64,000 nt of DNA from Haladaptatus caseinilyticus (GTDB lineage: Archaea > Halobacteriota > Halobacteria > Halobacteriales > Haladaptataceae), in assembly GCF_026248685.1 (NCBI RefSeq), contig NZ_CP111036.1, positions 2,480,001-2,544,000 on the forward strand. The letters run 5' to 3'. Made by a program: the position numbers and the translations under genes. Of this stretch, positions 26,522-33,033 are shown piece after piece. Below the pieces are notes generated by a model, which worked only from the letters and a program-made list of their open reading frames with translations, searched no databases and was not told where the DNA came from. The stretch's first letter is position 1. Each line of letters starts with the position of its first letter.

Positions 26522-27286
26522 ATGCACGTCTCCGACGACGACGGAATTCGAACGGTTACCTTCGACCGCCCCAACGTACGAAACGCATTCACACCGGAAG
26601 CCGCGGGCGAACTCGCCGAAATCCTGTCCGAGAGCGACCCCAAATCCATCGATGCGGTCGTGCTGACTGGAGAGGGAAAAGCGTTCAGCGCGGGTGGCGA
26701 CATCGAGTCGATGGCGGAGCGCGAGGAGAACGTCCGGGAGGCCTACGAACGGGTTCGCGACACGCTCTCACGAGTCGTTCACGAAGTGCTTTCCGCACCC
26801 GTCCCCGTCGTCGCGAAGGTCAACGGCGATGCGGTCGGTGCCGGAATGGCACTCGTCACGGCGTCGGATTTCGCATATGCCGCCGAATCCGCCCGATTCG
26901 CGGCCTCGTTCATCAACGTCGGTCTGATTCCAGATATGGGGGGGACGTTCCTGCTCCCGCGACTCGTCGGTTTGCGCACGGCCAAGGAACTCGCGTTCAC
27001 TGGGGAGTTGATTTCGGCCGAGGAAGCGGCCGAGTTGGACGTCATCAACGAAGCCGTTCCCGACGAACAGCTCGACGTTCGGGTAGAAGAACTGACCGAC
27101 ACGCTAGCGAAACAGCCGACCCATACCATCGCACTCGGCAAGCAAGCTCTGCACGAAAACCTCGGAAAGGATTGGCGCGAAGCACTCGACTACGAGACGA
27201 TGGTTCAGTCACAGGCCTACGACATGCCCGCTCACAGAGAAGGTGTCTCTGCGTTCCTCGAAGGACGGAAGCCCGAATTCGAGTGA
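26522..27286 (+). CDS. Crotonase-family isomerase, PaaG-like (epoxide-to-oxepin)
   Basis: A 254-residue crotonase. The oxyanion loop is FSAGGDIESM near residue 58 and the second oxyanion segment is GDAVGAGMAL near residue 101. The active-site stretch NVGLIPDMGGTFLLPRLVG near residue 138 has Asp where hydratases have Glu/Pro-Gly and matches PaaG (GLIPDSGGTWLLP), which turns the ring epoxide into oxepin-CoA. It is not next to paaABCD but is the best candidate for that step in the window. It could also be another enoyl-CoA isomerase. Confidence 0.82.
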   Translation: MHVSDDDGIRTVTFDRPNVRNAFTPEAAGELAEILSESDPKSIDAVVLTGEGKAFSAGGDIESMAEREENVREAYERVRDTLSRVVHEVLSAPVPVVAKVNGDAVGAGMALVTASDFAYAAESARFAASFINVGLIPDMGGTFLLPRLVGLRTAKELAFTGELISAEEAAELDVINEAVPDEQLDVRVEELTDTLAKQPTHTIALGKQALHENLGKDWREALDYETMVQSQAYDMPAHREGVSAFLEGRKPEFE

Positions 27287-27464
27287 GCGAACTTCGAATC
27301 GCCCTGGTGTGAAAAATCGAACGCCGTGATATCTTTTTGAAAGTTAAATTTCATTTTCACCCGAGCATGCTGTCGAACACTGCACTCATAAACAATATTT
27401 CGATCTATGAAATTCCCGACCTGACGTTGTCCAGATGGAATCCCTCCACACGTTCACTGGATAG

Positions 27465-27707
27465 TGGAGGTCGTTCGGGAAGTCGTTCGCTCACGCCGCT
27501 CGTTCGACTGAGGGAGGGAAGTTCGAAGCAACAAACGACGTCCACGAACGACAGTACACCGCAATCGGGTTTTACATCGATCGAGAAGGACGACATGTCC
27601 GCCGATTCGAATCGGCCGTCGGCGAATACGATGCGGCAGGTTCATCGATTCCTGTAATTCGAGAAAGGGAAAGAGTTCAAACGTCACACCGATATAACCG
27701 CCCATGA
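27465..27707 (+). pseudogene. Possible gene remnant
   Basis: An open stretch of 80 codons after an in-frame TAG, without a proper start codon. Its translation reads like a haloarchaeal protein in the middle (YTAIGFYIDREGRHVRRF, then ESAVGEYDAAGSSIPVIR), but upstream frames are broken. I read it as the tail of a decayed gene. The interval 27287-27464 is AT-rich and shows nothing else. Confidence 0.3.
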
Positions 27708-27717
27708 ACGCGGGATA

Positions 27718-27999
27718 TCAGTCTCTGATAAGATACCACATAACAAGGGTGCTAACGAGAAGAGCGCCTCCAAAAACTGGGCTGTTATCCATACCAAAGA
27801 GGGGCGGACTCGGACTTCGATAGATGTTCAATGCACTCTGAAATATGACTACTACAAATATAATCGTGAGAAGTGCATATATCGCATTGACTATGTACGC
27901 GTACCATTTGGTAGAATCCAAATATCCCTTCAGCAGCGGCTCAGTACCCTCCTGATCCCGGTGAACCAGTGGGTCACGAAGTGAACTACTCTTTCCCAT
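27718..27999 (-). CDS. Small two-helix membrane protein
   Basis: A 93-residue protein with a polar N-terminus (GKSSSLRDPLVHRDQEG) and two membrane helices, about residues 33-56 (YAYIVNAIYALLTIIFVVVIF) - a long helix of which LLTIIFVVVIF is the core - and 74-90 (FGGALLVSTLVMWYLI). No family recognised. It sits downstream of the GH26 gene on the same strand at the edge of the glycan island. Confidence 0.65.
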   Translation of the reverse strand: MGKSSSLRDPLVHRDQEGTEPLLKGYLDSTKWYAYIVNAIYALLTIIFVVVIFQSALNIYRSPSPPLFGMDNSPVFGGALLVSTLVMWYLIRD

Positions 28000-28127
28000 G
28001 GCAGTATGATACGTCGCCCACAGGTATAAACATATATCGTGTATTTGTCCTGAATTAATCTCTACACGGCATTGATAATCGAACTACTGTCTCTGGATAC
28101 GGTAACTACGTACAATGTCGTTCGAAA

Positions 28128-29144
28128 TTAGAACTTTCCCAGAAACTGTTCATCCGTCAAGATACGCGGGGCCGCTCCGCCAAGTGGATTCAGTTCCGTC
28201 GTAACAAGGGTTCTGTACGCGGGATACGTCGAACACGTAGACCCGTCTACCGTCACTGTCTTCGTGCCGTTTTTACCGTCGAACACTGCCCAATCAGTAT
28301 TTTTATCCATATTGAACCAACTTATCAAATTCACGTCAGTGGAAGCGATGTAGCGGCCGAACTCCGTTATCCAGGCGTTCTTCTCGCTCGCTCGATACCT
28401 GCCACGATAGCACGAACTGCTGGCGAGCTCGGGAAACGCGATCGGATTGTCGGCTAACCGTTTCATCCGGTCGAGCATCGGATCATAGATTTCCGATGGA
28501 GACTTCCATTCGGACCATTTCTGGCTGTCACCCCAATTGTACCCGTCGATACCGATCCAATCGACGTATTCGTCCCCTGGATAAAACGATTCAGCGGGGT
28601 AGGCCAGTCGGTCTTCACAGTTCACCGACCACATCCACTGTATGTGTTCGCCTATCATCACCGTCTCGGCGAAGATTTCACGGAGATGGCGCCACATCCG
28701 CACATAATCGCTGGGTGTTATACGACCGTCCCGAGCGCTCCACGGATACCAATCTCCGTTCATTTCGTGTGCTGGCCGGAAGAACAACCTGCGCTCGTGC
28801 CCTTCAGGGGGCTCAAAAATCCACGATTCTAACAGTGATGCGAATCTCGAAATCTGTTCGTCGTACATTCCACGTGCGATCTGCTGCGTGATGAGTTCGT
28901 TGGACTCCGTTTCCGTCCGCGGTTCCCACGTCACTAGCGGAACGTGACTGTGATTCCATGTGCGGGTCATCCAACTATCGACGAACGCCTCGACCCGGTT
29001 CGGGTCGGAGAGCCCTGAAATGAACAACGTAACGACGGTGGGTCGCGTGCCCAACCAAGTCTCGAACCGGTCGAGTGACGTCAAATCTTCTGTTCGATCA
29101 CCGGGGAAAACTCCAAGAAGTACATTTTTTCTTTTGGCAGGCAT
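28128..29144 (-). CDS. Glycoside hydrolase family 26-like enzyme
   Basis: A 338-residue TIM-barrel glycosidase. GH26 markers are RPAHEMNGDWYPW (general acid Glu, about residue 126), WMWSVN, YPGDEYVDWIGIDGYNWG and the nucleophile Glu in IAFPELASSS, in family order. GH26 members cut beta-mannans or mixed-linkage glucans. The ATG at 29144 is chosen because an ATATAC element lies about 27 nt upstream; the longer frame adds 22 atypical residues. No signal peptide is seen, which is odd for a polysaccharide hydrolase. It is divergent from a GT2 synthase. Confidence 0.85.
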   Translation of the reverse strand: MPAKRKNVLLGVFPGDRTEDLTSLDRFETWLGTRPTVVTLFISGLSDPNRVEAFVDSWMTRTWNHSHVPLVTWEPRTETESNELITQQIARGMYDEQISRFASLLESWIFEPPEGHERRLFFRPAHEMNGDWYPWSARDGRITPSDYVRMWRHLREIFAETVMIGEHIQWMWSVNCEDRLAYPAESFYPGDEYVDWIGIDGYNWGDSQKWSEWKSPSEIYDPMLDRMKRLADNPIAFPELASSSCYRGRYRASEKNAWITEFGRYIASTDVNLISWFNMDKNTDWAVFDGKNGTKTVTVDGSTCSTYPAYRTLVTTELNPLGGAAPRILTDEQFLGKF

Positions 29145-29375
29145 GTTCTCGTCGGTGTTGTAGTGACGGTATATTCGTCTCTCGGTTCGTCTCGGGGAAC
29201 CGTGGATCAAACGATACGTCGGGGTCGCTGATATGAGTTGCTCCGGTGCACGGTACGGTCGGACCTATTTTAGCGGTGAGTTGCTAGAATTACTGTCTTC
29301 TATAGTCTCATTGATAATAGCACACATACGATAACGGACTATATGTTTATTGGCTAATCGGTTGTTCGACAGACG

Positions 29376-30518
29376 ATGGTACAAATCGGGTCTCTCATCG
29401 GATATATTGTTTTTTGGCCGATACTTATTTTATTTGCACTTACTACCTCATTTTGGATCTATGAAATCGTTTTCCTCGCTAGAGACTGGAAAAAGAAGGA
29501 AATAGAGCATGGACTGGATCAAATACAAGTTCGGATACTGACCATCGGATCGGAAGGTGTCGTCCAAAACACGGTCGATTCCATACCTGACGAACTTACC
29601 GAGAGGATCGTCGTTGCGGAAAAGGAGATGACGATATCAGGTGCTGACGTACACGTCGTTCCTTCCGACTTCTCGTGTAATGCACGATACAAAGCGAGAG
29701 CCGTCGAATGGGCCAGACGGCACGTTCCCTGTGAGAAAGAATACGTGCTGTATCTCGATGAGGACACTATCGCTACGGGGTTGGAGGGAATCCCTGATGC
29801 GGACATCGTCCAGTATTCCGAACATCCCGTCCGAACCGACTCGTACCTCGCGTATCTCTGTGAAATATTCCGCCAGGGATTCCAAATCGAGCAACGGGCG
29901 TTCAGTAAGCTCTCGATTCCACTCTATGCGTGGGGAGGCGGTCTCGCCGTGAGAAAGGAACTCGAAGACGAGATCACGTGGAATTTCGAATCGATGATCG
30001 AAGATACCCGGTTTACCTGGATTGCGATCCATTATCGGGATGCGTCGTTTTGTCTCGCAAAATCACACCTCTACAATCAGGCGCCGCCGTCGGTCGGAAA
30101 TATGATCCGTCAACGACGACGTTGGGCATCAGGTACCCGCGAACAGCTCAGTCTTCTTCCGAATCGATATCGAATACTGTTCGTCGCTCGAAATGCGAGT
30201 TGGGGTGCATCACCGCTGATACCGTTGCTCCTGCTCAATTCTCTGTTCTTTCAGGGAATCACTCCGACGTCGTTCATCTATCGATTCGGATCGATCGTTC
30301 TCTCGTCGTTCCTGGCGGTTTGGAGCTTGCTCGGTATTTATTACTACGATGCAAATGTGAAAGATTCGATCCTTCTCATCCTCCTCGGACCCGTTCTGAG
30401 CTCGTTGCACTCCGTCGGGGCGCTCTGGGGATTTTTCTCTCCGGTCAAGCAGTTCAACGTTACCGAAAAAGTCGATCCGAGCTCCGAAAAGATCTCGGAG
30501 CTCGCCTCCGACGACTAG
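29376..30518 (+). CDS. Family 2 glycosyltransferase, membrane polysaccharide synthase type
   Basis: A 380-residue membrane enzyme. A membrane helix (residues 5-32) is followed by a GT-A domain with YLDEDT (D-x-D-like metal site, about residue 130), GGGLAVRKEL near residue 195 and the acceptor/processive motif QRRRW near residue 248, then about three membrane helices (residues 285-365). This is the cellulose/chitin/hyaluronan-synthase plan, nearest in feel to Egghead-like GT2 proteins. It would extend a surface glycan and feed it across the membrane. TATATG-TTTAT lies about 27-36 nt before the start, so it is its own unit. Confidence 0.88.
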   Translation: MVQIGSLIGYIVFWPILILFALTTSFWIYEIVFLARDWKKKEIEHGLDQIQVRILTIGSEGVVQNTVDSIPDELTERIVVAEKEMTISGADVHVVPSDFSCNARYKARAVEWARRHVPCEKEYVLYLDEDTIATGLEGIPDADIVQYSEHPVRTDSYLAYLCEIFRQGFQIEQRAFSKLSIPLYAWGGGLAVRKELEDEITWNFESMIEDTRFTWIAIHYRDASFCLAKSHLYNQAPPSVGNMIRQRRRWASGTREQLSLLPNRYRILFVARNASWGASPLIPLLLLNSLFFQGITPTSFIYRFGSIVLSSFLAVWSLLGIYYYDANVKDSILLILLGPVLSSLHSVGALWGFFSPVKQFNVTEKVDPSSEKISELASDD

Positions 30519-30557
30519 GTGCGTTACTATCGAACCAGCAGTCCGATTCGAATCCGA

Positions 30558-30746
30558 TCATCCGATGAATGACAACTTCTCCCACAACGCCGCAGCGACT
30601 ACGGCAATAAAGATACTGATAGTTACTACCGCTAAAATTCGTCGGATCCCGAGGTGGTATATGGTACTGAGAATTAACACCGCATACACAGCAACGGCGG
30701 TGATGATACCAGCAACCAATCCCTCGTACGATTTCCTACTTTCCAT
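30558..30746 (-). CDS. Small two-helix membrane protein
   Basis: A 62-residue protein starting MESRKSYEG, with two membrane helices (LVAGIITAVAVYAVLILST and ILAVVTISIFIAVVAAAL). The start is placed at the internal ATG because the longer frame adds Arg-rich residues without hydrophobic pattern. Its stop is 40 nt beyond the convergent GT2 stop. No family recognised. Confidence 0.6.
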   Translation of the reverse strand: MESRKSYEGLVAGIITAVAVYAVLILSTIYHLGIRRILAVVTISIFIAVVAAALWEKLSFIG

Positions 30747-30895
30747 CGATAGACATTCGACTAATCTATTAGCTCGCCATCTTCGTACCGCTCCGGTGAA
30801 CATGCGAGTTACCACGGTATCCTACATATTCGTTTCGGCTGTTTGGCAGGTTCGCTCCGTAAAACACGACCCGTTCGTGGAGTTGTGAGGTGTAG

Positions 30896-32401
30896 TTATA
30901 TCAGTCGTGCCGACCACGAAATTTCGACGTTGTCGGTTCCCTGTGGCGGTGGAGATGAGAACCGTACTTCCAGAGCTTCGTACGCGTAATCGCCATTCAA
31001 ATCCGCGGGAGAGATGCTTATCGGGCCCGCTTCTTTCGCAGCGTCGTTCACCGGTGACGCCCAGGCAAGGATGTTCTGTCGCCACGGGTTTTCCGCCAAC
31101 TGGTGTGACGAAATCGTGAACGTCTTGGTCGCCCCGTCCCCGCTAAACGTCGTGCTTGCAAAAGTTTGCGTGTTATAGCCGTTCACACGGAACGGAATCG
31201 TCGATGGGTCCCGGTTGCCGATCAATTCTTGAACATTCCCGTAGCCAGTGCAGAACGCAATGTTGTTTACCTTAGACCCGTTCGCCTCCGAGTATCCATG
31301 CCGCTGTGTCGATGAACCTTGATTGTCCGCAAAGGTGCTGAAGAAAATATAATTGTCTTGGGAATTGGTGAGCTGTATTCCATCGTAGGTTCCCGCGTTT
31401 GCCGTACTGTTGTTGAATGCGTAACTTCCTTCGAAGAAAATTCGCGTCGCATTTCGAAGGAGTGCTCCGTTTCTCGTATTTGTATCCAAGAAGGTACCAT
31501 AGAACCAGCAATCGTTTGCACCGTCGACCAAGAGACCGTTCGTGTTGTCGAACGTGTGGAGATGTTGGCAGACGTGACCTGAACCCTGTACTCGCATTCC
31601 TTGAGCAGCGTTTTCGTGGAAATAACAGTTATAGAGTGAGAGATCGTAACAGACGTTCGTATTTAATCCATGTGAGTTCGCAAAGCCTTGGTCGATGTTC
31701 TGCAATATGGGCTCGTAGAGCTTATCGGTCCCTCCTTCGAACTGAATACCTGCTCCGGCAGTATCTCGAATAATGAGGTTGAACAGCTTCGGTCGCCAGT
31801 TGTACCCCGTGATTCGGATGCCGAACCCACTGGTGTTGTTGGCTTTGTTACCGTCTATGTAGAGGTTCGATATTTCACACTCCAGTTCGTTGGCAGGTAT
31901 CTGAATCACGTCGTCGTTTGTTCCGTTCGAAAGGCGGAGTATCGTCGCTTGATTTCCCGCCCCGACTAGTCGAACCCCTTGTCGCATTACGAGCGGTTCG
32001 GAGATGGTGTAGACACCAGGTGACAGCTGGACTGTTCCCCCACCAGCCGCTGCATCGATTTCTGCCTGAATGTCGGTCGATGTGGGTGCATAATTGATGC
32101 CGTTCAGTTCAGTCGTAGTAACCGATTCGAATCTCGGTTCCTCACCGGTCGTCTCGACCTCGACCCACTCTTGCCCCGTTCCGATGAAAACTTGGCCCGT
32201 ATCGAGAGCGAAAAATTTGGCGTTCTTTTTCGGACGATATTCGTCGAGGTTCTCCAAATCGTCCCGTATTTCGGTGGCGTATCGTCCGTTCCCCCCTTGT
32301 TGATTTTTAGATTCGCCCCCGCATTCGCCCTCTGTATTCCGATTCTGATAGAACGGGATGCCTGCAACGCCGCTTGCTTTGAGGAAATTTCTTCTCTCCA
32401 T
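30896..32401 (-). CDS. Right-handed beta-helix protein with Tat-like start (pectate lyase/epimerase-like)
   Basis: A 501-residue protein. MERRNFLKASG is a twin-arginine motif but the hydrophobic part after it is short, so export needs checking. Residues 100-420 are a parallel beta-helix: GGGTVQLSPGVYTISEPLVM is the classic first coil (core VQLSPGVYTI), followed by GIRITGYNW, GAGIQFEGG, GMRVQGSG, GLLVDGAND and similar coils. The C-terminal 80 residues are a separate beta domain. Such proteins are lyases, epimerases or tailspike-like glycan binders. Together with GT2 and GH26 it suggests surface-glycan editing. Confidence 0.82.
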   Translation of the reverse strand: MERRNFLKASGVAGIPFYQNRNTEGECGGESKNQQGGNGRYATEIRDDLENLDEYRPKKNAKFFALDTGQVFIGTGQEWVEVETTGEEPRFESVTTTELNGINYAPTSTDIQAEIDAAAGGGTVQLSPGVYTISEPLVMRQGVRLVGAGNQATILRLSNGTNDDVIQIPANELECEISNLYIDGNKANNTSGFGIRITGYNWRPKLFNLIIRDTAGAGIQFEGGTDKLYEPILQNIDQGFANSHGLNTNVCYDLSLYNCYFHENAAQGMRVQGSGHVCQHLHTFDNTNGLLVDGANDCWFYGTFLDTNTRNGALLRNATRIFFEGSYAFNNSTANAGTYDGIQLTNSQDNYIFFSTFADNQGSSTQRHGYSEANGSKVNNIAFCTGYGNVQELIGNRDPSTIPFRVNGYNTQTFASTTFSGDGATKTFTISSHQLAENPWRQNILAWASPVNDAAKEAGPISISPADLNGDYAYEALEVRFSSPPPQGTDNVEISWSARLI

Positions 32402-32485
32402 GGAATATACGATTTAATTTGTAATCAATAAATCTTTGTAATATATTTGTGAAGATGTGTCTACATCCTTAGTTCGAAACCCTCT

Positions 32486-32506
32486 CCTCGCCGTCGGAAG
32501 GCGGGG
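32486..32506. repeat. GC-rich hairpin in AT-rich intergenic DNA
   Basis: CCTCGCC and GGCGGGG pair as a 7-bp stem (one G-T) around a 7-nt loop. It resembles the terminal hairpins of IS200/IS605-type haloarchaeal elements, but no transposase remains nearby. Could be a solo end or a terminator of the beta-helix neighbour's opposite side. Confidence 0.3.
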
Positions 32507-32628
32507 CTACGGCTTACATAACCAAACGACTACGAAATATTGTTCATCCTAGCCGACGGATATACGATGAGGAACTGATTTTTCGACCGACGCTCCAGGC
32601 CGTAGACTCTACCGTTGGAGATGCAATC

Positions 32629-33033
32629 TCAAACTTCCGAGAGATGAACGTGAATCACTCGGTTGCAATCTTCCTCTCCACAGACGGCACAATTGCCGTT
32701 CTCCTCGCTATCGTAGGCATCCGCGAGCGCGGTAGCGTCTTCCGCATCCAAACCGGCAGTCGCAAGTATCACGCGCTCCCCGGCGTGGCCGAGTTCGTAG
32801 CCACCGTCACTCTCTCGAACGAATCGTTCACGGAGTTCCGTGAGATGGTAGTTGAAACGACCGGTGTCCCGGATTCCAACCCGCTCTCTGAGCTCAGAAA
32901 ACGCGAGCGGTTCCTCCGCCGTCGCCAGTTCGCGGAGGATCGCGATTCGATGTTCACTTGCGAGCGTTCCGAGCGCATCGACTGCCGCGTCAGCGATTTC
33001 ATCGTCTATTCCGGCCGAATCCGTTGGAGGCAT
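32629..33033 (-). CDS. ArsR-like winged-helix regulator with C-terminal zinc-binding tail
   Basis: A 134-residue protein starting MPPTDSAG. Residues 15-90 form a winged helix (LASEHRIAILRELATAE, FSELRERVGIRDTGRFNYHLTEL with key part FNYHLTEL). The C-terminus has CAVCGEEDC plus H-x-H, a likely small metal site. The longer frame adds 15 residues before this ATG, but the TATA-like AT run near 33080 would then be too close. Divergent from the gene at 33142. Confidence 0.75.
   Translation of the reverse strand: MPPTDSAGIDDEIADAAVDALGTLASEHRIAILRELATAEEPLAFSELRERVGIRDTGRFNYHLTELRERFVRESDGGYELGHAGERVILATAGLDAEDATALADAYDSEENGNCAVCGEEDCNRVIHVHLSEV

Follow-up and report, generated by a model that had tools for sequence, protein, structure and literature searches.

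In bacterial synthase-dependent systems, i.e., in the gene layout of the cellulose system (BcsA-BcsZ) and similar ones, a membrane-bound family 2 glycosyltransferase (GT2) with a QxxRW motif is encoded alongside a hydrolase of beta-glycans. Among the archaeal membrane GT2 enzymes, PcManGT from Pyrobaculum is reportedly an N-glycan/lipid mannosyltransferase, and we know of no hydrolase partner for it. As for hydrolases of family GH26, a 2024 paper delimits a haloarchaeal "clade I" of more than 100 proteins whose homology to beta-1,4-mannanases is very low, and the available portion of that paper reports neither a function nor a linkage to GT2 genes for it (PMC10963439). In bacteria, the wps-1 cluster of Actinoplanes missouriensis was described with the statement that no earlier Wzx/Wzy cluster with a GH26 enzyme had been characterised (PMC13390465).

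The stretch of Haladaptatus caseinilyticus DNA analysed here (64,000 nucleotides, called the window in the following) carries a GT2 gene and a GH26 gene side by side, and the presence of such a neighbour pair in many haloarchaea suggests an undescribed archaeal sugar-polymer system. The relevant features of the window, with the evidence for each, are these:

27,287-32,635, no strand: inserted block of about 5.3-5.35 kb with low GC (empty site in the congeners G006, G007 and G008, and composition)
27,718-27,999, minus strand: small membrane protein of 93 aa, without significant family match (ORF list, Pfam)
28,128-29,210, minus strand: GH26 glycoside hydrolase of a lichenase-like clade, without signal peptide (Pfam, profile, fold model, leader scan)
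28,428-28,430, minus strand: codon of Glu261, predicted catalytic nucleophile, in PELASS (invariant in 33 sequences, aligned to CtLic26A)
28,764-28,766, minus strand: codon of Glu149, predicted catalytic acid/base, in HEMNGDWYPW (invariant in 33 sequences, aligned to CtLic26A)
29,376-30,518, plus strand: short membrane-embedded GT2 of 380 aa with a cellulose/hyaluronan-synthase-like fold (Pfam, motifs, model)
29,757-29,765, plus strand: DED motif (Asp128-Asp130) of the GT-A domain (invariant in 29 sequences)
30,111-30,125, plus strand: QRRRW motif (Gln246-Trp250), the QxxRW of processive GT2 enzymes (Q246, R247, R249 and W250 invariant in 29 sequences)
30,558-30,815, minus strand: small membrane protein of 85 aa, not a conserved partner (search of relatives)
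30,896-32,401, minus strand: Tat-type right-handed beta-helix protein of 501 aa, unlinked to GT2 or GH26 elsewhere (Pfam, genome search)

The five genes of the block (27,718-32,401) lie between an enoyl-CoA hydratase gene and an HTH gene. A previous sequence-only reading had placed a surface-glycan island at 28,128-32,401 in AT-richer DNA, and both its ORFs and the composition hold (49-53% G+C at 27-33 kb vs about 60% leftward), whereas its range stops just short of the fifth gene, that of the 93-aa protein, which sits inside the insertion. In three congeners (G006, G007 and G008) the flanks up to 27,286-27,290 and from 32,635-32,637 are contiguous save for about 150 bp, and the block is a genuine insertion relative to them. 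Neither the GT2 nor the GH26 was found in any of the eight congeners searched, and the system is therefore dispensable, which weighs against the synthase-plus-hydrolase reading set out below. Borders formed by an IS element were considered and rejected for want of convincing terminal repeats; an additional ORF at 27,337-27,657 has neither a Pfam nor a plasmid match, and scans for promoters and terminators gave signals no greater than those in shuffled sequences.

The same reading had likened these genes to alginate-like synthesis and editing systems, in which the beta-helix protein would serve as an epimerase or a lyase, a comparison drawn from this protein and the GT2 alone. The beta-helix itself is borne out by matches to PF13229 (1.7e-8) and PF12708 (4.6e-7), accompanied by a weak Tat signal, and these rhamnogalacturonase/epimerase-like matches, together with the position of the gene within the same inserted block, speak for that comparison. 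Against it, the protein also has a weak match to a phage minor tail protein family, neither a mannuronate pathway gene nor any other gene specific to alginate could be recognised in the block, and a lichenase is the nearest solved relative of the GH26. Relatives of the beta-helix protein occur in 109 of 384 genomes, mostly as short segments, and none of the places listed from that search lies near a GT2-GH26 pair, so that the co-occurrence of GT2 and beta-helix genes expected of an alginate-type system was not found; an alginate-like function is, in our view, hardly credible. What the beta-helix protein shares with other haloarchaeal proteins is mainly the segment of residues 43-103; these proteins are numerous, "hypothetical" and often plasmid-borne, and the observation takes in the locus G000:C6:495102-495557. 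The 85-aa membrane protein is nearly unique, with a single weak match among 58 relatives. A conserved five-gene system was accordingly rejected: neither the beta-helix protein nor the 85-aa protein is kept with the pair, and of the four genes covered by the searches only GT2 and GH26 recur.

The hydrolase belongs to GH26 by its match to PF02156 (E=1.3e-15, 58 bits, the curated cut-off being 20.2), in agreement with the divergent GH26 that had been noticed in the island. Its closest solved relative is the lichenase CtLic26A (Endoglucanase H) by single sequence, by profile (169 bits, vs 70 for mannanases and 30 for a beta-1,3-xylanase) and by predicted structure (pLDDT 91; fold search 9e-24, vs 1e-12 for mannanases), with mannanases and beta-1,3-xylanases well behind. 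The two proteins share the fold (TM 0.9 by target), the HExNGDWYPW and DGYNWG motifs and both catalytic glutamates (E149 and E261), which lie on a predicted TIM barrel, although their identity is only about 27%; on this likeness, the window enzyme is possibly a lichenase (EC 3.2.1.73) that would cleave beta-(1,3;1,4)-glucan. CtLic26A comes from a degrader of plant polysaccharides, not from a synthase locus. The start of the window gene is probably the ATG at 29,144 rather than the TTG at 29,210. In most GH26 relatives there is a Tat-like leader, in many cases accompanied by a lipobox, and these enzymes would act outside the cell, while the window protein has no signal peptide in any frame, a point that counts against a synthase working with a dedicated hydrolase; a signal peptide hidden in another frame was looked for and rejected. 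Six other loci (L084, L087, L089, L090, L092 and L093) share the leaderless form, and in five of them the GH26 gene abuts or overlaps a GT2 gene on the same strand (-58 to +5 bp). At L135:4959-8963, a GH26 domain and the C-terminal portion of an S8 subtilase form one protein of 1334 aa, whose gene lies 465 bp from a GT2 gene, and long open frames resembling this fusion are present in related genomes.

The GT2, described earlier as processive-type, bears this out in its predicted fold and in its motifs: it matches PF13632 (E=1.2e-11), its DED, ED and QRxRW motifs are kept in 29 relatives, and in the model (pLDDT 87.5) a GT-A domain is embedded with transmembrane and interface helices. Cellulose and hyaluronan synthases match the model at 1e-9, with TM-scores of only about 0.5-0.65. 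There is no close sequence likeness to BcsA with its PilZ domain, the profile match to BcsA being marginal (E=0.0016, over part of the protein) and PilZ absent, and the membrane helices are few in comparison with BcsA. This scarcity of helices, the minimal fold shared with the archaeal mannosyltransferase 6yv7 (PcManGT, rank 21 in the fold search) and the failure to find any close relative with a solved structure or an assay weigh against a synthase-plus-hydrolase pair. In a different account, the GT2 is non-processive and transfers just one sugar, onto a lipid carrier or a glycolipid, the GH26 then trimming the resulting glycan or an N-glycan. The minimal membrane fold favours it, as do the many short GT2 genes that stand alone and the appearance of PcManGT among the fold matches and as the best hit by sequence for the profile of the long GT2 (see below). 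Single transfers of this kind are reportedly carried out by PcManGT in Pyrobaculum and by the animal egghead enzyme; an egghead-like affiliation of the window GT2 was considered, and a literature search on it found nothing. The invariant QxxRW motif, the higher rank of polymerising synthases among the fold matches and the established fact that GH26 and GH16 members are typically endo-acting on polymers oppose this account, which we regard as unlikely. Under the reading favoured here, the GT2 would instead polymerise a chain and probably secrete it.

The pairing is not peculiar to the window. Of 392 genomes of the order, 127 have the short GT2 and 43 have this GH26, and 60 neighbourhoods were read: 20 with both genes close, 20 with the GT2 and no GH26, and 20 with the GH26 and no adjoining short GT2. 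A GT2 gene lies within 3 kb of 43 of the 48 clade GH26 genes examined (27 of the short type and 16 of a longer one), the first 20 loci having been chosen for the closeness of the pair and the third set not; thus, the two genes are kept together elsewhere. In that third set, a long GT2 is near 16 of 21 GH26 genes, mostly divergently placed; these long enzymes, mostly of 500-610 aa, count cellulose synthases, hyaluronan synthases and PcManGT among their relatives. All these neighbour counts cover GT2, GH26 and GH16 only and were obtained with a crude ORF caller. The background of PF13632 genes (38 in 13 genomes, about one per 1.3 Mb) gives an estimated chance expectation of some 0.6% of GH26 genes within 3 kb of a GT2. 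This linkage strongly disfavours a catabolic GH26 that degrades environmental polysaccharides and is near a GT2 by chance, an explanation we consider very improbable: haloarchaea with catabolic GH26 enzymes do exist, but the published ones are assigned to a separate clade (II), and their neighbours differ (PMC10963439). In bacterial plasmid relatives (the Arthrobacter group, Deinococcus and Acetoanaerobium), no GH26-GT2 linkage was seen in five annotated loci or among the ORFs of a sixth, and no report of the haloarchaeal pair was found in the open-access literature, subscription papers being outside the scope of that search.

Several of these neighbourhoods hold further genes. A UDP-glucose/GDP-mannose dehydrogenase gene adjoins the pair at L079:5553-6845 and L081:10193-11485, whose GH26 proteins are the nearest relatives of that of the window. 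On a Salinirubellus salinus plasmid (L227), the pair has a CBASS cyclase a few genes away. Near the long GT2 of the GH26 loci L117, L121, L122, L123 and L124 there is a DUF2334/polysaccharide-deacetylase-like gene, hinting at an N-acetylated polymer there. In the Halorubrum loci L109, L111, L146, L149 and similar ones, a short GT2 without hydrolase occupies a stable site by SMC-like and ScpA-like genes, so labelled by sequence appearance.

From the side of the GT2, the association is looser. When loci were collected solely by similarity to the GT2, five of the 79 named ones had GH26 and five had GH16, i.e., the GT2 often stands without either. In a GT2 tree of 107 sequences, built by a short search and with the window on a long branch, seven changes are required for the GH26 partner, with starred branches forcing at least six of these, and four for the GH16 partner; pairing has therefore been gained or lost several times. 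No such hydrolase is encoded within the loci covered for 77 of the 107 short GT2 genes, which indicates that the GT2 can work alone and weighs against a synthase-plus-hydrolase reading. In the GH26 tree, the type of GT2 is strongly clustered (seven changes vs a shuffled mean of 18.4, a value reached in 0 of 200 shuffles).

In other genomes, the same short GT2 is paired with a GH16 protein, lipoprotein-like and matching PF00722, whose best solved match, 2vy0, is an endo-beta-1,3-glucanase. Only one archaeal GH16 is stated to have been characterised, that of Pyrococcus furiosus, with laminarin, lichenan and barley glucan as the substrates it cleaves; Natronocalculus amylovorans AArc-St2, for its part, possesses a GH16 gene yet shows no growth with beta-glucan, lichenan or curdlan (PMC9726719). 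In the AArc-St2 locus (L150), a GH16 gene lies directly behind the short GT2, and we assume that it is the gene of that report; the lack of growth argues against a catabolic role of GH16 there and fits an action on the cell's own glycan. Since the nearest solved relative is a lichenase for the GH26 and an endo-beta-1,3-glucanase for the GH16 partner, the polymer would most likely be a beta-glucan with (1,3;1,4) linkages. A beta-mannan or glucomannan, with the GH26 as a mannanase, would leave the synthase and hydrolase roles intact and change the product. Beta-mannanases make up the majority of characterised GH26 enzymes, and Haloarcula hispanica is known to have a mannose-rich EPS (PMC5467301); lichenase wins by a wide margin in sequence, profile and fold, and the GH16 partner would be ill-suited to mannan, which makes this product decidedly unlikely.

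Taken together, we consider it fairly probable that GT2 and GH26 form a pair of synthase and dedicated hydrolase for a beta-linked glycan, leaving aside the exact polymer. The GT2 would be a membrane-embedded inverting glycosyltransferase that turns a nucleotide sugar into a beta-linked chain and probably exports it, and the GH26 a dedicated retaining endo-hydrolase that trims or releases this chain, acting outside the cell in the case of the relatives, the majority, with a Tat-like leader. More tentatively, and as a possibility rather than a probability, haloarchaea may make beta-(1,3;1,4)-glucan, or a close beta-glucan, with this minimal machine of GT2 and lichenase-like hydrolase; to our knowledge, both the mixed-linkage polymer and the two-component machine would be the first in the domain Archaea. 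The pairing points to a glycan pathway of the synthase type in a domain, Archaea, in which the synthesis of EPS and biofilm polymers is little known, gives a testable function to some haloarchaeal GH16 enzymes in strains without growth on beta-glucans, and involves a gene set small enough to be amenable to deletion tests.

Compared with the bacterial synthase-dependent systems, the haloarchaeal pair has in common the membrane GT2 with QxxRW and the beta-glycan hydrolase encoded alongside, and differs, besides in its archaeal host, in the hydrolase (GH26 or GH16 instead of GH8), in the missing PilZ domain of the window GT2 and in that no BcsB-like or outer-membrane export parts were seen among the conserved haloarchaeal neighbours. 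The (1,3;1,4)-beta-glucan synthases RiGT2 of Romboutsia and BgsA of Sinorhizobium, likened here by description, are also GT2 enzymes with QxxRW and may be alike in their mixed-linkage product, inferred in our case; unlike the window GT2, RiGT2 contains a PilZ domain (PMC10374906). PcManGT (PDB 6yv7) is likewise an archaeal membrane GT2, matching the long GT2 profile and, at a lower rank, the model of the short GT2. The wps-1 cluster resembles the locus in having a GH26, WpsE, within an exopolysaccharide cluster, and differs in being bacterial and of Wzx/Wzy type (PMC13390465). Finally, the window GH26 group, haloarchaeal and of low similarity to mannanases, is probably, judging from the published description, the GH26 clade I left unexplained there (>100 proteins), to which the linkage with GT2 now gives a testable function (PMC10963439).
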